From a virus, in the IMG/VR virus record IMGVR_UViG_3300025000_000236, positions 1 to 38,718 of that record: a stretch of 38,718 bases of DNA. One strand, written 5' to 3'. The notes beneath the pieces are model-generated. The model had not been told where the DNA came from and did no database searches. It saw only the letters and a list, made by a program, of their open reading frames with translations. Made by a program: the position numbers and the translations under genes. Below are positions 14,122-37,396 of the stretch, piece by piece; within the stretch, counting starts at the first letter, position 1; each line of letters begins with the position of its first letter.

Positions 14122-14130
14122 GGGGCTGTG

Positions 14131-15555
14131 ATGGTAATCAAGCCACAAAAGCCATATTACAACATCGACCCGGTGTCTAAGCAGATAGTTTCAGATGCTA
14201 TCTACGACGGATACCGGGACGAAACAGACAGCTTGTGCAGCCGCTTTGGTTTGCGTGAGTTTACCGACCTTGCAACTGGTTTGCCGGGTGATGGGCTGTT
14301 CTGGTGGGACAAGCTAAATAAGCCTGTTGCCGTGTCGGGCGGTAAGGCATTCACCTTTGACAAATACGGCGTGGTGTCTGAACTGACGGGACCGGCGCTT
14401 AACCAGGGAACGCCAACGGTATTCGCAGCGGGGCAGAAGATAGATAATTCAGCGATTCTCTTTTGCTGCAACGGTAAGAATCTTAACTACAGCACCGGGC
14501 ATGAGTTCACACAGGTGGGCAGCCCCGCCCCGCAGAATAGCACGCACGTAATTTATCAGGGCTTGCGCTTTTTGGGCAACGAGAAGGACACCGCCCGTTT
14601 TTACTTTTCAGATATTGACCCCGAAACCGGCGAGTTTGACCCAACCTATTGGGCGGCTACTGAGAACCCGCTGACAGGCGACACGCGGGGCGACAATATT
14701 CTTGGCTTGTACCAGGCGTGGGAAGATGCGGCGGTATGGGGCAGCGATGGCCGGGAGTTGTGGCAGGAAACGGGCGGGGAACCTCCTATCGAGATGCGCC
14801 GTGGTTCTTTCTGTGACGCCGGTCTTATCGCCCCGTACAGCGTCAAGCGTGCCGATAACACCTTCTTTGCGCTATGCACGGTGGACGAAAAACCGGCGGT
14901 AGTGCGGCTGGTGGGTAACGACCCGCAGGTGATTAGCCTTGATATAGAAAGAGTGCTTGATAATTTCTCTACACTGGCAAACGCCATAGGCGACGTTATC
15001 AGTATCGGTGGGCAGTCTTTCTACATCCTTACCAACGAGGGGCAAACGTGGGCGTATAACATCAAGAAACAAGAGTGGTATCGGTGGAGCTGGTGGAATA
15101 AACACTATGCCGAACGTGAGGCGTTTCTTGGGCGTCACTTTATCTTTGCAAAGGCATGGGGTAAGCACCTGTGTCAAAGCCGCGTTGACGGCAAGATTTA
15201 TGAGGTTGTATCAGACGCAACCAGCGATAACGGTAACTTGATTGCAACCGAATGGGTGACAGGGTGGGCAGACGGTGGGACTACTGAGGAAAAAGTGTTG
15301 GCATGGCTCCGTATCCACCTGAAACGGGCGCAGGGTAACACCGCCGGCAGCGAACCGGTCATGGTGTTCAAATACCGCAACAACGGAAAGCAGGAATGGA
15401 GCAACGAAAGACAAATCTCGTTGGGCAAACAAGGGCAGTATGAGTTTTACAAAACGCTGCACTCCTTGGGACAATTCCGCAGCCGTCAGTTTTCGTTACG
15501 CATGACCGACGCGGCAAACTTGGTTTTTGCTGGCATTGAGATGGAGTTTTCGTAA
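14131..15555 (+). CDS. Tail hub, P22 gp10-like DNA stabilisation protein
   Basis: At about 474 residues it is nearly the size of P22 gp10, the tail hub that plugs the portal channel. The sequence is built of beta-propeller-like blades with repeated aromatic strands (GDGLFWWDKLNKPVAVSG, GQSFYILTNEGQTWAYNIKK, EWYRWSWWNKHYAERE). ATG 14131 is preferred to the adjacent GTG 14128 because of the spacing from AAGGGG. Gene order (adaptor, spike, hub, tail protein, ejection proteins) supports the assignment. Confidence 0.7.
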   Translation: MVIKPQKPYYNIDPVSKQIVSDAIYDGYRDETDSLCSRFGLREFTDLATGLPGDGLFWWDKLNKPVAVSGGKAFTFDKYGVVSELTGPALNQGTPTVFAAGQKIDNSAILFCCNGKNLNYSTGHEFTQVGSPAPQNSTHVIYQGLRFLGNEKDTARFYFSDIDPETGEFDPTYWAATENPLTGDTRGDNILGLYQAWEDAAVWGSDGRELWQETGGEPPIEMRRGSFCDAGLIAPYSVKRADNTFFALCTVDEKPAVVRLVGNDPQVISLDIERVLDNFSTLANAIGDVISIGGQSFYILTNEGQTWAYNIKKQEWYRWSWWNKHYAEREAFLGRHFIFAKAWGKHLCQSRVDGKIYEVVSDATSDNGNLIATEWVTGWADGGTTEEKVLAWLRIHLKRAQGNTAGSEPVMVFKYRNNGKQEWSNERQISLGKQGQYEFYKTLHSLGQFRSRQFSLRMTDAANLVFAGIEMEFS

Positions 15556-16524
15556 ATGGCGCAAGGTCCGTTTACTAAATTACCTAAACCTCCCCGCCCT
15601 TCGGTAATCATTGAGGAAATGAAACGGGGCGACTTGCGGGAAACCTCGGCATGGTTTGACAGGATATTTATGATTCTGTCGGGACTACCCGGTATTGCGT
15701 GGAGCGTGGTAAGCAAGGCGGGTTCCAACCTTACCGATATTGAAACCCGCAACCATAACAACCTGCAAACCATCGGCGAAGCGGATTTAACGAGCACAGA
15801 CGGCACCAAGAGGCAGCACATCAGTAACGCGCAGGGCAAAGCGTGGGAGGATCACCGCAACGCCTCACAGGACGTTCACGGCATTGGTGTTGATAATTCC
15901 GTTGTAGGCACCGGGACAGAACAGACTATCAGCAATAAGAAGTACGGTGGGGATACCGATTACAGTGAGTTTGAAGACGATGGAACACTGAAATTCAACG
16001 GGGATGCAACAGTATGGAACGACATAAATAAATCCCTTCTTCCCCTTACCACAGGAGTTAGCACACCAGACATAATTGCCGTCAACAGCGATGCAATGCT
16101 GAAAGTGCGGTCATTTGACGGCAACGTGACTACAGAGGAATTGGGGGAGTCGTTTGAAATAGTCCACGATTACAAGGAAGGGACTAACATTGTCCCTCAT
16201 ATTCATTGGTGTCCAACTACTGCCGATGCTGGCAATGTTAAATGGCAACTGCGCTATATGTGGGTAGACCGGAACGGCGTGTTTGAAAATGCTGTGACCA
16301 TCTTTGTAACCGCCGCAGCGGGGGGAGTTGCTTGGAAAGAACACCGCACCAGCTTCCCCGAAATATCCGGCACTGGTAAGCATATTGGGAGCCGGTTCAC
16401 GTTTGTCTTGTTTCGAGATCCAACAGACGCAGCCGACACCTACGCCGCAGACGCAGCCGCCTTTGATTTCGGCGTACATTACGAGATAGACACCATTGGT
16501 AGCCGGGGAGTTACGGCGAAATGA
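15556..16524 (+). CDS. Tail protein with C-terminal beta-sandwich
   Basis: The 322-residue product has a helical N-terminus (SVIIEEMKRGDLRETSAWFD), a middle motif SNAQGKAWEDHRNASQDVHG common in podovirus tail proteins, and a C-terminal beta domain. The C-terminal domain (VPHIHWCPTTADAGNVKWQL, KHIGSRFTFVLFRDP) resembles receptor- or sugar-binding sandwiches. It is probably a tail tip or fibre component. Its stop codon overlaps the start of the first radical SAM gene (ATGA), so the enzymes are co-translated with it. Confidence 0.62.
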   Translation: MAQGPFTKLPKPPRPSVIIEEMKRGDLRETSAWFDRIFMILSGLPGIAWSVVSKAGSNLTDIETRNHNNLQTIGEADLTSTDGTKRQHISNAQGKAWEDHRNASQDVHGIGVDNSVVGTGTEQTISNKKYGGDTDYSEFEDDGTLKFNGDATVWNDINKSLLPLTTGVSTPDIIAVNSDAMLKVRSFDGNVTTEELGESFEIVHDYKEGTNIVPHIHWCPTTADAGNVKWQLRYMWVDRNGVFENAVTIFVTAAAGGVAWKEHRTSFPEISGTGKHIGSRFTFVLFRDPTDAADTYAADAAAFDFGVHYEIDTIGSRGVTAK

Positions 16525-17591
16525 AAATAGCCCTTGTACTTCATAAATACGGCGTACCACTTGATGACCCTTGCTCCTTCCCGCTGGGTTTCATGTACGT
16601 CAGTGCCGTATTGAAGGAGCAGGGGCATACCGTCAAGGTGTTGAATTACAACCTATGGGAATACGATTTTGTAAACGAAGTGGCCGGGTGTGATGTGGTC
16701 ATGTTCACCGGTTTTGAAGAGTTCAAACCGTACATTATCAGGGATGCGGAAGTCTGTGACGACCTGGGAATCAAAACCGTACTAGGTGGCGCACTGGCTA
16801 CCTTTAAGCCACAGGAGATGCTGCAACATGTGGATACGGTCGTTGTTGGCGAAGGGGAAGAAGTATTGACCCGAGCACTCAATGCACCGGGCGTTATATA
16901 TGGGGGGAGGCCAGACCTTGACCGCCTGCCCCTGCCCGATTACGAAGGATTTGGCATAGAGGAATACCACCGCCGCAACGGGTTCAAACACATTGGGGTG
17001 CTAACCTCTAGGGGATGCCCTCATAGTTGCACATTTTGTGCTCACACCTGCCATTACCAGTGCCGCAAACTGAGTGCCGTGATGGATGAAATAGCAGCCT
17101 ATAGGCAGCAGTACGGCATAGAACATGTGGTTATCAACGATAACACGCTCAATGGTTCCAAGGGCAGATTTAGGGCTTTCTGTAACGAAATGGGCAAGAG
17201 TGGTCTTTCGTGGACTGCGGCTCTGCGGCTGGATAATCTGGATGAATCGCTGGTTGAACTGGCTAAGTCGGCGGGGCTTGTCTATACGGTGGTGGGCGTC
17301 GAATCCATGCGGCAGTCAGACCTTGACCGGTACAACAAGGGCATCAGTGTTGAACAGGTAGAAAGAGGATTGGCGTTGTTGGAAAAACATCATATCGGGT
17401 ACATGGGCAACCTTCTGGTGGAAACCATAAACGACTTGGAGCGCAACCGACCATTTCTAGAACGGTACAACCTGTTCCCAGCTCCGGTTATGAGGTTTGT
17501 CGGAACGGCTGTCGATTCTGCGGTTGATGGCGGTCTGGTGGAAATCTGCCGCCAGTACATACAATCAAGGGGGTTGGCGTTCAATGCGTAG
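16521..17591 (+). CDS. B12-binding-type radical SAM enzyme
   Basis: The 356-residue protein has the two-part layout of the B12-binding radical SAM group. Residues 1-115 form a Rossmann-like domain (GFMYVSAVLKEQGHTVKV, VVMFTGFEEF, DTVVVGEGEE) but lack DxHxxG, as is common in this group. From about 155 comes a radical SAM barrel with C166, C170 and C173 in RGCPHSCTFC, binding the 4Fe-4S cluster that cleaves SAM. INDNTLNG and VVGVESM follow at usual positions. Substrate unknown. A second Cys cluster follows (CAHTCHYQC). It is coupled to the tail gene by ATGA and overlaps the second radical SAM by 8 bases. Such enzymes are rare among phage late genes. Confidence 0.85.
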   Translation: MKIALVLHKYGVPLDDPCSFPLGFMYVSAVLKEQGHTVKVLNYNLWEYDFVNEVAGCDVVMFTGFEEFKPYIIRDAEVCDDLGIKTVLGGALATFKPQEMLQHVDTVVVGEGEEVLTRALNAPGVIYGGRPDLDRLPLPDYEGFGIEEYHRRNGFKHIGVLTSRGCPHSCTFCAHTCHYQCRKLSAVMDEIAAYRQQYGIEHVVINDNTLNGSKGRFRAFCNEMGKSGLSWTAALRLDNLDESLVELAKSAGLVYTVVGVESMRQSDLDRYNKGISVEQVERGLALLEKHHIGYMGNLLVETINDLERNRPFLERYNLFPAPVMRFVGTAVDSAVDGGLVEICRQYIQSRGLAFNA

Positions 17592-18522
17592 AACTATAAC
17601 CATCTGTCCATCATGCCATTCCATCATCCCGGCGACTACCGAAGGCTTATATATGCGGTACAACTGCTGTGGCGCGGAACAAAACAGGCAGATAGAAGTT
17701 GATCCCGATTTTGTTGCAACAATAGGGTATGGGCGGGTGGAGGATGTGTACCGTTCGTTTATCCTCAACATTACCGGTGCCTGCAACGATACCTGCCGTC
17801 TGTGTTACTACCCGTTAACCGGAGAACATCAGCCGTTCGAGTGGTGCATTGAGCAGGCGGCGAGGTTTCCTGATTTTGGGGTGTGGTTGTCTGGCGGTGA
17901 ACCAACCTGTCACCCGCGCTTGTTCGAGATTATCGCGGCAATGCCAAACTTCCACTGCGTCTTGACCAACGGCAAACGTTTTGCCGACCCAATGTACCTG
18001 AACGAGTTCATTGGCAAAGTAGGGTTTGACCGGAACGGGTATCTTCCCGCCGTCGTTAGTATTCACGCCGACCCTCCCGACTATAAACATGCGGCACTCG
18101 ACAACATCCGGCTGCTGGGAGTGAAGCTAAACTGCATCATGTTCAGTATCCAGCGTGTAGGAGAACTGCCCGAAATACTGGAACTGTGGGGGAGATACCA
18201 GGATGTTGCCGACCATGCGCGTATCCGCACCCCTTTCAATTCCTGGAACCAGAAATCACACAAGACGCTGTATCTGTCGAAGGTGTTCAAAGAAATAAAG
18301 CGGCTGTTCCCCCACTTCACTATAACCGAGAGACTAGGCGGCAACAGCATTTATAACGTGAATCTTGAGCATGAAGGCCGGCTGCTTTCCCTCTGCTCTG
18401 CTCCAGACCCAGCGGCTTTTGATGTTGATGCCTGTTCCTGTTCCCCGAAAATGATGGCCAACGACGGCAATTTGTACCCGACCCCGATGGCTTTGGTGAT
18501 GAATGAACATACGACGTGCTGA
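17584..18522 (+). CDS. Radical SAM enzyme with N-terminal zinc ribbon
   Basis: I chose ATG 17584 behind AAGGGGG, giving 312 residues. An N-terminal metal knuckle (C8, C11, C28, C29: ICPSCHSIIP...NCCG) recalls the ribbon ahead of the barrel in the MJ0619/Tes-type radical SAM group. The radical SAM motif is C67-x3-C71-x2-C74 in GACNDTCRLCYY, and SGGEPTCH at about 103-110 contacts SAM. The C-terminus holds further cysteines (SLCSAP, DACSCSP, final Cys) that could bind an auxiliary cluster. It overlaps both neighbours. Two different radical SAM enzymes in a row suggest successive steps on one substrate. Confidence 0.85.
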   Translation: MRRTITICPSCHSIIPATTEGLYMRYNCCGAEQNRQIEVDPDFVATIGYGRVEDVYRSFILNITGACNDTCRLCYYPLTGEHQPFEWCIEQAARFPDFGVWLSGGEPTCHPRLFEIIAAMPNFHCVLTNGKRFADPMYLNEFIGKVGFDRNGYLPAVVSIHADPPDYKHAALDNIRLLGVKLNCIMFSIQRVGELPEILELWGRYQDVADHARIRTPFNSWNQKSHKTLYLSKVFKEIKRLFPHFTITERLGGNSIYNVNLEHEGRLLSLCSAPDPAAFDVDACSCSPKMMANDGNLYPTPMALVMNEHTTC

Positions 18523-18949
18523 GACACCGGAAGATTTGGATGTAATGGGTAAGATGGCGGCACGGTTCGCTACTGAATCCCAGTTTGTAAAGGTGAATCC
18601 TGCCCTGCCTAGACACTCCTATTGGCCGATGGTCGAAAGCGGCATTGCAGCGGTCTTCATGCTGGAACACGAAGGGATAGCGGTAGGGGGGCTGGGGTGT
18701 ATCAAGTTTCCCGACCTGCATTCTGGCACACTTACCGCCGTTGAAACTTTTTGGTATGTAGACCCCGACCACCGGGGGCATGGTCTTGCATTATTTGAAG
18801 CCTATGAACACTGGGCAATAGAGAACGGTTGCCAGATGATAGCAATGATTCACATGGTTGACAGTATGCCCGACGTACTTGAACGGTTTTATAAACGACG
18901 CGGTTATCAACTGGTTGAAAAGCATTACATGAAGGAGATCAAACCATGA
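18503..18949 (+). CDS. GNAT-family N-acetyltransferase
   Basis: The 148-residue product has the GNAT fold signals. AVGGLGCIKFPD and TFWYVDPDHRGHGLALFEAY form the acetyl-CoA-binding motif A with RGHGLA, followed by the helix YEHWAIENGC. FYKRRGYQLVEKHY is the usual C-terminal motif. GNAT proteins with this RRGY ending are known beside internal virion protein genes of several phages. The start lies 20 bases inside the second radical SAM gene and its stop overlaps the next gene (ATGA). It may acetylate an amine created by, or shared with, the two upstream enzymes; substrate unknown. Confidence 0.83.
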   Translation: MNIRRAETPEDLDVMGKMAARFATESQFVKVNPALPRHSYWPMVESGIAAVFMLEHEGIAVGGLGCIKFPDLHSGTLTAVETFWYVDPDHRGHGLALFEAYEHWAIENGCQMIAMIHMVDSMPDVLERFYKRRGYQLVEKHYMKEIKP

Positions 18950-19848
18950 GTATCGTATCCGGTTCACTCGGCGCGGTAATGGGTTCCAAAGCTACTCGGC
19001 AGGCAGCTAATACATCAGCGCAGGCTCAACGTGATGCCGCAAATACTGCCGCCGCCACCATCGAAGAACAATCGGCAAGGGCCGAATCACTTAACCAACC
19101 GTTTTATGAGGCGGGTATCCCCGCCTTGGCGCAACTGCAATCTGGCATCATGGGCGGTCCTATTTCGTACCGTGACCCACAGTACCGTATGCTGACCTCG
19201 GACGACATCACGGCATTCAACGATAATGTGGCGGGTGGATTTGGTAGCAATATGCGGCTGTCAGGGTTACTGAGTACATCACAGAAAGACGGTATGCTCG
19301 ACAAGACCGGGCGCTATTATGTCGGTCCCAATGGCGAGATAGTCACCACCCCACCCGAACGGTCAACGACCTTTGAATATAAGCAATCACCACTAGCCAA
19401 ATTTCAGGGGGTATCTTTGATGCGGGGGCTTGGGGCAAGGGGTCTTGCTGGTGGCGGCATAGCTCCTTACGCACAGGCTAAACTTGCCGCAGAGGATTAC
19501 GACAAGCAACTTGGGCGATTGGCTGGGTTGGTCGATGTGGGTAGGGGTGCAGGAACATCGCTGACCAACCTTGCAACCAACTCCGGCAATCAGGTATCAG
19601 GTATCCAAAATCAATTAGGGCTAGGTCTGGCTAATTCGGCGCTCCTGTCGGGACAGGCAAGGGCTAGCCTCTACTCCGGTCTTGGCGCACAATCCGGTAA
19701 CGCCATTTCCAACGCATACAACGGGTATAAACTGGGGCAAAACGCCGGTTGGTGGGGCAACTCTGGCACCAGTATGGGAGGAGGTGGGGGTTCTGCCGCC
19801 GCAGCAGCCGACGCTTACCAACCCGCCGCATCATATTACGGAGAATAA
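18946..19848 (+). CDS. Ejection (DNA transfer) protein 1, P22 gp7-like
   Basis: The 300-residue protein is rich in Ala, Gly, Ser and Gln. It has an N-terminal helical region (AQAQRDAANTAAATIEEQSA) and a glycine-rich C-terminus (TSMGGGGGSAAAAADAY). Composition, lack of Cys and position after tail genes are typical of internal proteins that leave the virion first and help DNA cross the envelope. The assignment is by composition and context. The start overlaps the GNAT stop. Confidence 0.6.
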   Translation: MSIVSGSLGAVMGSKATRQAANTSAQAQRDAANTAAATIEEQSARAESLNQPFYEAGIPALAQLQSGIMGGPISYRDPQYRMLTSDDITAFNDNVAGGFGSNMRLSGLLSTSQKDGMLDKTGRYYVGPNGEIVTTPPERSTTFEYKQSPLAKFQGVSLMRGLGARGLAGGGIAPYAQAKLAAEDYDKQLGRLAGLVDVGRGAGTSLTNLATNSGNQVSGIQNQLGLGLANSALLSGQARASLYSGLGAQSGNAISNAYNGYKLGQNAGWWGNSGTSMGGGGGSAAAAADAYQPAASYYGE

Positions 19849-19851
19849 GCC

Positions 19852-21183
19852 ATGACCGGATTCGTAGACCCATGGGCAGGGGCAAATCAGACAACGCAAA
19901 CTTTAGCCAACCTTGGCAAGCAGATTGACGAGGAAAAGCGTAGTGCGCTGGCCGAACAACTGACCCGGCAACAAATATCACAAAACAGGATGACTCTTGC
20001 CGACCTGGACCGAAAGCGCAAGGTTGAGAAGGGCGCACTTGATGCCGTAGCCAACGCGCAGCCGACTACCGCAACCACTTTTGCCCCCGCTGAACAGCCA
20101 ACCGAAATAGCTGGACGGTTTGCACCAAATCCCGAATTTACCGAAGTAACTGGAAGAGTGACAAAACCGCCCAACCATGACCGGGTGCTGTTAGATTATT
20201 ACAAGGCACACGACCCTGAAAAGGCGCTGGGGATGGAAAAGCTGTTAATGGACAAGTTTAAATCGCTGTCCGAGATAGCGCCAGAATCCGCTATTGAGTG
20301 GTACAACGACTTTGCTGGAACCGACTTTAAGTTTACTGGCAAGAAGGGTGATTATTCTTACCTGCAAGACGGCAAAACCGGCAGCATCGTTGCTGTAAAT
20401 TCCCGCGATCCAAAAGATATAAGGGTAGTGCGGGAAGGAGAAAGAGCTCTACTTGTAGTCGCCCCCGGAAGTACAGTCCTAGGCCCCGACAATCAGCCGG
20501 TGTTTACAGCCGACCCCAAGGCCGAATACAAATCCCGCACGCGCAACATAGGGGACAAGGAACTATTTGAAGAGTCACAGGACGGCGGGAAGACATGGAA
20601 ACAGGTAGGGGAACCAGCGCCAAGGTATAAACCATCTGGCGGCGGCACTACTATTATGCAGAGCACATTTGTGGACCCTGCTACCGGCAACCCCCTTATT
20701 TTTGACAAGGCCACAGGAACATACAAGGTTGCTACTATTTCGGGCTGGGGCGGGGTAGCGCCAAAACCTTCTGCAATGACTCCCGAAACTGCGGGTAAAG
20801 CGCAAATGGTTGAACAAGCCATAGGCTATATTCCGACCTTGAGGCAGGAGTTGTTTGATGCGGATGGTAGTGTCAACCGCACCAATGTTGCCAACTTGGT
20901 GGCGCGTACTTGGGGGACTCGCGGCAGGGAACTTTCAACCCTTATTTTGGATGCAGTGGAGGCAAAATTAAGAGTTGAATCGGGGGCGGCGGTTCCAGAC
21001 TCAGAGGTGAAGCGTGCTGCTAAAAGATTTGTTCCAGAAATAGGTGATTCTGCTAATAATTTAAAAATAAAGCTAGATAATCTTGAAACGTTTTTAAAGA
21101 AAACCACTGAAAAAATCAACCGTGGACGGCAACCAGACAAGAAGCCGGGCGGCAAGAAAGCTGACCCGTTGGGGATACTGTAA
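19852..21183 (+). CDS. Ejection protein 2
   Basis: The 443-residue product begins with MTGFVDPWAGANQTTQTLAN and a long polar helix (KQIDEEKRSALAEQLTRQQI). A middle part with short beta segments (YSYLQDGKTGSIVAVN, VVAPGSTVLGPDNQPVF) and a helical C-terminus ending GGKKADPLGIL follow. This Gln/Lys-rich, low-Cys architecture fits an internal virion protein. No lysozyme or transglycosylase motif is visible. It overlaps the next start by one base (TAATG). Confidence 0.55.
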   Translation: MTGFVDPWAGANQTTQTLANLGKQIDEEKRSALAEQLTRQQISQNRMTLADLDRKRKVEKGALDAVANAQPTTATTFAPAEQPTEIAGRFAPNPEFTEVTGRVTKPPNHDRVLLDYYKAHDPEKALGMEKLLMDKFKSLSEIAPESAIEWYNDFAGTDFKFTGKKGDYSYLQDGKTGSIVAVNSRDPKDIRVVREGERALLVVAPGSTVLGPDNQPVFTADPKAEYKSRTRNIGDKELFEESQDGGKTWKQVGEPAPRYKPSGGGTTIMQSTFVDPATGNPLIFDKATGTYKVATISGWGGVAPKPSAMTPETAGKAQMVEQAIGYIPTLRQELFDADGSVNRTNVANLVARTWGTRGRELSTLILDAVEAKLRVESGAAVPDSEVKRAAKRFVPEIGDSANNLKIKLDNLETFLKKTTEKINRGRQPDKKPGGKKADPLGIL

Positions 21184-36018: not shown

Positions 36019-36161
36019 ACCTCCACCCCCCGCACGTATTTGTTTGCGACGTACACGACTGCATCCACAACAACGGCGACGGTGATTGCCAGCGTACCTC
36101 ATTGACCATTGGTGACGATGGGAAGTGTTTTTATCTGAAGGAAGGGGAGGGAAAGAAATGA
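36015..36161 (+). CDS. Cysteine-rich small protein, DUF1540-like
   Basis: The 48-residue product reads VFVCDVHDCIHNNGDGDCQR, then LTIGDDGKCF. The spacing C-x4-C and the later C-x-x-x-I/L-x-I resemble the DUF1540 metal-binding pattern (V.C.v..C.yN...C....I.i). It starts and stops by ATGA overlaps with its neighbours. Function unknown. Confidence 0.58.
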   Translation: MNLHPPHVFVCDVHDCIHNNGDGDCQRTSLTIGDDGKCFYLKEGEGKK

Positions 36162-36688
36162 GCAGGCTTTATGAGCTGACACAAGAGATGGAAGACTTGA
36201 TGGATGCCGAGGTGTGCGACGAAACGGCACTTGAAAGGGTATTTGGCAACATTCAGATGAAGGCCCAAAACATCTGTCAATTTGTCCGTGTACTGGAATC
36301 TGAAGCAGCCATGTATCAGGCCGAAGTTGACAGACTAGCTGCACACGCTAAGGCGAGAGAGACCCGAGTAAAGCAGATAAAGGAATACTTGAAGCTGAAC
36401 ATGGAACGGCTAGCAGTTGAGAAGATCCCCGCTGGCACGTTCAATATTTCTCTGCAAAACAATTCACAACCGGCGCTGGAAGCTGACAACGAGAACGAGG
36501 CACCCAATGAATACATTGACATTATCCCCTGGACTGAAGTTTCAAAAGTTGATCATGATAAACTCACCGAAAAAGCTGAAAAAAGTGAAAGCATCCCCGC
36601 AAGAGACAGAATCAAAGCCGCCTTGCTTGCCGGGAAAGAGGTCAAGGGGTGGACAATCAAGCGCGGCAAGCATGTACGCATCCGGTGA
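36158..36688 (+). CDS. Gp157-like protein
   Basis: The 176-residue protein starts at ATG 36158, overlapping the previous stop. It is mostly coiled coil, beginning MSRLYELTQEMEDLMD, then NICQFVRVLESEAAMYQAEV and KARETRVKQIKEYLKLNMER. A beta tail follows (FNISLQNNSQPALEA, VKGWTIKRGKHVRIR). This matches the Siphovirus Gp157 family, which is encoded beside recombination genes; it has been linked to phage resistance in streptococci. The ERF gene follows. Confidence 0.82.
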   Translation: MSRLYELTQEMEDLMDAEVCDETALERVFGNIQMKAQNICQFVRVLESEAAMYQAEVDRLAAHAKARETRVKQIKEYLKLNMERLAVEKIPAGTFNISLQNNSQPALEADNENEAPNEYIDIIPWTEVSKVDHDKLTEKAEKSESIPARDRIKAALLAGKEVKGWTIKRGKHVRIR

Positions 36689-36745
36689 ATATGACCCGTT
36701 TGAGTGCTTCGATCACAAGAAACGACCAGTAGGGGAGGTTTGGAA

Positions 36746-37396
36746 ATGACGAAATCTGACAGCATCAAAGAACTGGCGGCAGCACTAGCTAAGGCGTTTC
36801 CCGAAATCGACAAGGCCGACAAGGAACGCACTAATCCCCACTTCCGTTCCAAGTATGCCGACTTGGGGAATGTGGTGGACGCTATTAAACCGGCACTGTG
36901 TAATCACGGACTGTCGTTTGTGCAGCACTGCCACCAAGGGGAGAACGCGGCGATAGTGGAGACGGTAATTATCCATTCCTCCGGCGAGTGGATGTCCTGC
37001 GGCTGTATCTCCGTTCCCACTATCAAGGCCGATCCGCAAGCATACGGCTCTGCCCTTACCTATGCTCGTCGCTATTCCTTGTCTGCCGCGTTCGGAGTGG
37101 CACCGGAGGATGATGACGGTAATGCCGCGGTTAAGGCACCGGAGGCAAAGAAGCGCCAACCCTCCGGCTTGTCTCCCCTTGACGCACTTAGAAAGGAGTT
37201 GGCCGACTTCTCCCCCGAACTCAACGAGCGGAAGACGTTGCTTGCACAAGCCACCAAAAGCAAGGGGGAGGACGGAAAAGATAAGTGGATGGAACTGGAG
37301 AAGCTGGACACATACACAGAGAAGGCGTGCGGGTTTGCACTTGGCAAAGTACGCGCCTACATCGACAACATGAAGAAGGAGAAAGCAAGTGCCTAA
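36746..37396 (+). CDS. ERF-family single-strand annealing protein
   Basis: The 216-residue product has the ERF signature: NPHFRSKYADLGNVVDAIKP, then LCNHGLSFVQHC and YGSALTYARRYSLSAAFGVA followed by PEDDDGN. ERF proteins anneal complementary single strands in phage recombination and concatemer formation. The C-terminus is variable and helical. ATG 36746 is preferred over the upstream start at 36704 (AGGGGAGG precedes it). It sits with SSB and a nuclease in one operon. Confidence 0.9.
   Translation: MTKSDSIKELAAALAKAFPEIDKADKERTNPHFRSKYADLGNVVDAIKPALCNHGLSFVQHCHQGENAAIVETVIIHSSGEWMSCGCISVPTIKADPQAYGSALTYARRYSLSAAFGVAPEDDDGNAAVKAPEAKKRQPSGLSPLDALRKELADFSPELNERKTLLAQATKSKGEDGKDKWMELEKLDTYTEKACGFALGKVRAYIDNMKKEKASA

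Follow-up and report, generated by a model that had tools for sequence, protein, structure and literature searches.

The window analysed here, a 38,718-base IMG/VR virus record whose positions serve as coordinates throughout, carries a cassette of three overlapping genes directly upstream of the gene for a P22-gp7-like DNA-ejection protein. The cassette encodes a B12-binding radical S-adenosylmethionine (SAM) protein (rSAM1), a second and different radical SAM protein (rSAM2) and a GNAT acetyltransferase. In these uncultured phages it is accessory yet always occupies the same address, so it is not chance cargo, and the trio is one version of a modular enzyme set. Because the cassette is kept in the ejection-gene block and rSAM1 is matched to a particular ejection-protein N terminus, we favour an ejected virion protein as its substrate. 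Our tentative proposal, which draws on sequence comparison and structural models, is that the cassette modifies the ejection protein post-translationally, probably near its N terminus.

The first-pass annotation described two distinct radical SAM genes and a GNAT gene that overlap each other and both flanking genes. We confirmed this arrangement, with the amendment that the zinc ribbon is reduced in the window copy of rSAM2. The overlaps are, in gene order, 4 nt (tail-region gene and rSAM1), 8 nt (rSAM1 and rSAM2), 20 nt (rSAM2 and GNAT) and 4 nt (GNAT and ejection gene), and the GC content at third codon positions (0.51–0.62) is the same as in neighbouring genes. The mechanical open reading frame (ORF) of rSAM2 opens at TTG 17497, and an alignment of ten members places the start of its homologues at the position of ATG 17584. 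When the upstream DNA of 14 ejection genes was aligned, the likely Shine-Dalgarno sequence of the ejection gene was found within the final GNAT codons (HYxKEI) in most rSAM1 loci, so that GNAT and ejection gene are tied to each other at the DNA level. No separate precursor-peptide gene of the kind used for ribosomally synthesized and post-translationally modified peptides is present in the window cassette, where the genes overlap and no spare gene exists, which leaves no space there for a separate gene of the peptide suggested earlier. Companion genes for DNA base modification were not found among the window ORFs scanned, a subset of the ORFs in a record that may be a fragment.

We found rSAM1 in 12 further distinct contigs, 11 of them viral and one (L022) from a Desulfobacterales metagenome-assembled genome. 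The GNAT gene lies 3' of rSAM1, directly or after rSAM2, in all 13 distinct loci, and the ejection gene then follows in each of the 12 loci whose contig continues. The full trio occurs in six contigs (the window, L003, L010, L022, L023 and L026), and seven more have rSAM1 and GNAT without rSAM2. rSAM2 also occurs without rSAM1 (L025, L027/L140, L028–L030, L036/L037 and L168); GNAT adjoins it in four of these groups as examined, with L168 as the exception. Such rSAM2–GNAT pairs stay in the ejection block, before the gp7-like gene or, in L027–L030, after it. Wherever the context is readable, the cassette is in the ejection-gene block. The gene upstream of rSAM1 varies among loci (tail protein, fibre or lysis genes), which ties the cassette to the ejection gene and not to a fibre or tail gene. 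The same order, with overlaps at many junctions, recurs among phages whose head closure proteins (Hc3) are mostly only 17–37% identical.

Close kinship, in turn, does not fix the content of the slot. Capsid relatives at 78–82% identity carry in the same place a cupin gene (L034), no enzyme gene (L035) or rSAM2 and GNAT (L036/L037). Conservation of the trio in related phages, which the first-pass annotation had put forward as a test, thus gives a divided answer: the three genes occur together in six contigs and are absent, in an otherwise unchanged gene order, from the closest relatives. Across 84 ejection loci the slot holds a cupin in 30, rSAM1 in 12, GNAT without a radical SAM gene in 11, rSAM2 in 3 and other or unassigned content in 28. 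The small cupin-like protein (phrog_12032-like in L034) is encoded directly upstream of the ejection gene, for example in L178, L180, L190, L194, L198, L205, L226 and L231, and its gene often overlaps the ejection gene by 4 nt; the ejection proteins of these phages are of another type, with longer hydrophobic N termini. Gene distances of rSAM1 track those of the ejection protein (rho 0.68) and Hc3 (0.61), and not those of GNAT; with a rho of just 0.29, rSAM1 and GNAT do not emerge as one inseparable evolving unit. Searches of INPHARED phages by tblastn with rSAM1 and rSAM2 gave no match. A single-sequence search of viral contigs with rSAM2 also gave none, its homologues being found only by alignment-based search, and the GNAT alignment was too diverse for use in scanning.

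The ejection protein itself differs according to whether rSAM1 is present. Its sequence starts with M-S-x-[VMI]-S-G in 12 of 12 rSAM1 loci and in 1 of 72 others (Fisher 1.2e-13), a P value that is too strong because the sequences are related and kinship is uncorrected; we therefore compared pairs of proteins at matched body similarity. Pairs of rSAM1 loci with the least similar bodies (<0.08) still had an N-terminal similarity of 0.46, whereas pairs of an rSAM1 locus and another locus with the most similar bodies (>0.3) had one of 0.10. Individual cases show the same pattern: L164 and L166, the latter with GNAT only, have a body score of 0.50 and an N-terminal score of 0.17, and the window and L018 have scores of 0.13 and 0.82. 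No part of the protein is as well conserved among rSAM1 loci as its first ten columns (69% identical, against 12–45% for other blocks). The cupin-slot phages lack this peak: their N-terminal value is 43%, and body blocks reach 66%. The shared N termini are not recent copies, because their codons differ. As controls in the same phages, mean N-terminal similarity was 0.62 for the gp7-like protein, −0.07 for the protein in the gp20 position and 0.27 for Hc3. The motif is not brought by GNAT alone (L166) or by GNAT with rSAM2 (L025 and L037). INPHARED searches for ejection-protein N termini as an independent control set returned nothing usable. The co-variation fits a role of the N terminus as substrate or recognition site for rSAM1.

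Table 1. Positions of the cassette genes, their motifs and neighbouring genes in the window
Feature	Coordinates	Strand	Basis or remark
Head closure protein Hc3 (P22 gp10-like)	14128..15555	+	phrog_578, 2.3e-40; context
322-aa tail-region protein	15556..16524	+	No family match; outside the conserved unit
rSAM1, 356 aa, B12-binding radical SAM protein	16521..17591	+	Pfam B12-binding and Radical_SAM
rSAM1 CX3CX2C (CPHSCTFC)	17016-17039	+	Motif kept in 13/13 homologues
rSAM2, HMPTM/Tes/TrsS-type radical SAM protein	17584..18522	+	Alignment of 10 homologues; profile and Foldseek matches
rSAM2 reduced Cys ribbon	17605-17670	+	Alignment of 10 homologues
rSAM2 CNDTCRLC	17782-17805	+	Radical SAM cluster motif
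GNAT acetyltransferase, phrog_1249	18503..18949	+	Acetyltransf_1 6.6e-10; acetyl-CoA motif RGHGLA
AAGGAG, likely Shine-Dalgarno of ejection gene	18932..18937	+	Within last GNAT codons (HYMKEI)
P22-gp7-like DNA-ejection protein, proposed substrate	18946..19848	+	phrog_598, 3.5e-12
Codons for N-terminal M-S-I-V-S-G of ejection protein	18946..18963	+	Motif comparison across loci
Next ejection-block protein (P22 gp20 position)	19852..21183	+	By position; context and N-terminal negative control

Outside the cassette, the right end of the window (36125-37396) holds recombination genes of the Gam-like/Gp157 and Erf-like kinds, which hints at a P22/lambda-like recombination system. In a 58% capsid relative (L044:15207-18150), genes of the tail region look like those for a sulfotransferase, methyltransferase and glycosyltransferase.

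rSAM1 matches the Pfam B12-binding (PF02310, 2.7e-13) and Radical_SAM (5.3e-8) models, both over the cut-off, and its AlphaFold2 model has a pLDDT of 87. The top PDB match of that model in Foldseek is MgmA (9ccb, 1.3e-14), followed by TsrM, OxsB and AprD4. MgmA acts on methyl-coenzyme M reductase, a protein in which it methylates a glutamine, and has a cleft that fits an extended peptide (PMC11796369), for which reason a protein substrate for rSAM1 is plausible on the evidence of the model. Both proteins combine a B12 domain with a radical SAM barrel, but they share 19% identity, the MgmA chain has 450 residues against 356 in rSAM1, and MgmA is cellular and archaeal; rSAM1 scores 41.6 bits against the NCBIfam TIGR04014 cut-off of 360. 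As the AprD4 match reflects, B12 radical SAM folds are not all methylases, and methyl transfer by rSAM1 is putative. The rSAM1 proteins form one phage clade (support 100/100), separate from the cellular proteins sampled and shorter than nearly all of them. Their mean identity of 55% is the highest in the block, compared with 33% for the ejection protein and 32% for Hc3. We rejected a recent host origin for rSAM1: among 389 genomes of the class to which the Desulfobacterales genome belongs, matches were distant, with a best E-value of 3.5e-51 where the phage copy has 4.5e-188. Matches to rSAM1 away from the slot fall in other clades. Members of such clades lie near the major capsid gene in the contigs of L027 (L246:3092-5262) and L026 (L247:2982-4739), and the one in L246 adjoins a glycosyltransferase-like ORF.

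The window rSAM2 matches Radical_SAM below the cut-off (E 0.0015) with its CX3CX2C and GGEPT motifs intact. Its ribbon is reduced to CPSC...CC, the usual C-x-x-H-G is gone and PF23545 is not detected; the L022 homologue passes both Radical_SAM and Zn_ribbon_HMPTM (PF23545; 35.5 against 27 bits). The nearest solved relative in sequence and fold is Tes, with a profile match of 4e-28 to the GDGT-MAS/Tes structure 7tol and a Foldseek match of 3.5e-12 for the rSAM2 model. HxsC, the first NCBIfam match, was dropped when homologues with a full ribbon scored best to TrsS and Tes. By profile and model comparison, rSAM2 groups with HMPTM/Tes/TrsS-like radical SAM proteins, with which it shares a MoaA-like radical SAM core and, in homologues with a full ribbon, the N-terminal CPxC...CxxH. 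It differs from them in its length (about 312 residues, against 441–486 for the family models), in a single, nearly invariant C-terminal Cys and, in the window copy, in lacking the ribbon His. Its scores of <=81 bits lie below the Tes/TrsS cut-offs of 450–490, no named family's cut-off is reached, and a substrate is not readable from the grouping. Elp3 also pairs radical SAM and GNAT activities, but it does so in one protein, whereas the cassette has separate proteins, and the GNAT matches the Elp3 model only marginally (E 0.033). A B12 domain is also absent from Elp3.

The position of the GNAT has counterparts in known phages. As in the window, the gene directly before the first ejection gene encodes a GNAT in Cobavirus/SIO1 and Pam1, and it encodes gp13 in T7 and gp14 in P22; unlike in the window, no radical SAM partner was found in those phages. 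The Cobavirus study put forward its GNAT as the counterpart of T7 gp13 (PMC6775973). Direct profile tests of the window GNAT against P22 gp14 and T7 gp13 did not show homology. Two further slot proteins (L192:3815-4297 and L207:5476-5934) match GNAT models above the cut-off and DUF2824, the P22 gp14 family, below it, a hint that P22 gp14 may be a diverged GNAT.

The proposed modification of the ejection protein can be spelled out as follows. The enzymes would be made from late mRNA just ahead of the gp7-like protein, as a virion-maturation module, and would act on it before or during packaging, most likely in its first residues. Using SAM and methylcobalamin, rSAM1 would place a methyl group on an unactivated carbon in or near M-S-x-[VMI]-S-G; GNAT would acetylate the N terminus or a side chain, or serve as an assembly factor of the T7 gp13 type; and, in loci that have it, rSAM2 would introduce another change by radical chemistry. 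Such a modification may tune the folding of the N terminus, its protease resistance or its entry into the host envelope. A more specific version, to which we are slightly less committed than to modification as such, is that the B12 radical SAM protein, with GNAT and sometimes the second radical SAM protein as helpers, gives the start of an ejected DNA-conduit protein a non-canonical residue or an added N-terminal group. The ejection protein as substrate, the residue, the catalytic activities, every chemical step and the benefit are what we infer here. A precedent for N-terminal processing is the host protease OpdA, which cuts 20 residues off P22 gp7.

Several points weigh against this proposal. 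P22 gp7 without its N-terminal 20 residues still supports a 60% burst, making them nearly dispensable (PMC8402733). The one locus outside the rSAM1 group with the motif, L027, has no rSAM1-clade member in its contig, which carries GNAT, rSAM2 and another B12 radical SAM gene near the capsid gene. Most of the ejection proteins used as controls were drawn from a single similarity search, and for some of them the assigned start is in doubt. MgmA leads TsrM, OxsB and AprD4 by just about 5- to 20-fold in E-value, so the fold leaves the substrate class unfixed. The cassette regions of L022 and L003 also contain a glycosyltransferase. Finally, the N terminus could hitch-hike with rSAM1 in a recombination block that ends inside the ejection gene; such a block alone is insufficient, because the first ten residues should then have diverged like the rest.

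The main rival explanation, which we consider unlikely, returns to a host-surface glycan or lipid as the target, an option also raised by the first-pass annotation. The cassette would alter envelope glycans or lipids of the host, or a virion glycan, with a block to superinfection or masking of the particle as examples of the benefit; rSAM1 would methylate a sugar or lipid, GNAT would acetylate an amino sugar, and the chain would be built by a family-2 glycosyltransferase. There is some ground for this: two related GT2-like genes are present, one between rSAM1 and rSAM2 (L022:11010-11690) and the other upstream of head–tail genes (L003:3-491), and a structural operon in L020 (3851-9373) and L248 combines several GT2 genes with a methyltransferase-like ORF and three matches to B12 radical SAM proteins (of which one, at a contig end, is closely related to rSAM1 but truncated). 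Tes is a lipid enzyme, and the conservation of rSAM1 beyond that of the virion proteins is what a conserved substrate outside the virion would predict. But glycosyltransferases are present in just 2 of 13 rSAM1 loci, with none seen near the window cassette, and the ejection N terminus that follows rSAM1 and the constant address at the ejection gene are left unexplained. Of the substrates suggested earlier, a virion component remains the one that address and N terminus favour.

A little less likely still is a reading as accessory cargo: the slot between tail and ejection genes would simply tolerate insertions, which alone would place the genes beside the ejection gene, and each enzyme would have a small molecule or host defence as its target. 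The varied content of the slot across the 84 loci, and even among the closest capsid relatives, would suit such cargo; the same order and overlapping junctions in phages with divergent Hc3 would not, nor would the findings that rSAM1 was never seen without GNAT, that slot type and ejection N terminus travel together and that matches beyond the slot belong to other clades. We regard as most doubtful a virion role for GNAT only, as a morphogenesis factor of the T7 gp13 or P22 gp14 type, with the radical SAM genes inserted by chance and acting elsewhere. The equation of the Cobavirus GNAT with T7 gp13 speaks for it, together with the GNAT or GNAT-like genes that immediately precede the first ejection or internal-virion gene in Pam1, SIO1 and ICBM2, the same placement without radical SAM genes in L166, L192 and L207, and the poor tracking of GNAT by rSAM1 distances. 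Against it, the N-terminal motif goes with rSAM1, and not with GNAT alone or GNAT plus rSAM2.

We know of no report of virion proteins modified by radical chemistry, and our literature searches found neither such a protein nor such a pair of radical SAM genes. The first-pass annotation did not recognize the trio as a described system; this stands for the radical SAM pair, absent from the papers searched, and not for the GNAT, which is known alone beside internal-virion-protein genes. GNATs in this slot are thus not new, whereas a proven radical modification of an ejection protein would be categorically so, and the proposal is directly testable on a protein of 300 residues. If it is true and the ejection protein is modified, the orphan GNAT genes that many phages have next to genes for internal virion proteins would gain a testable role, and an extra chemical layer would be added to the way in which phages with P22-like ejection proteins breach the host envelope.

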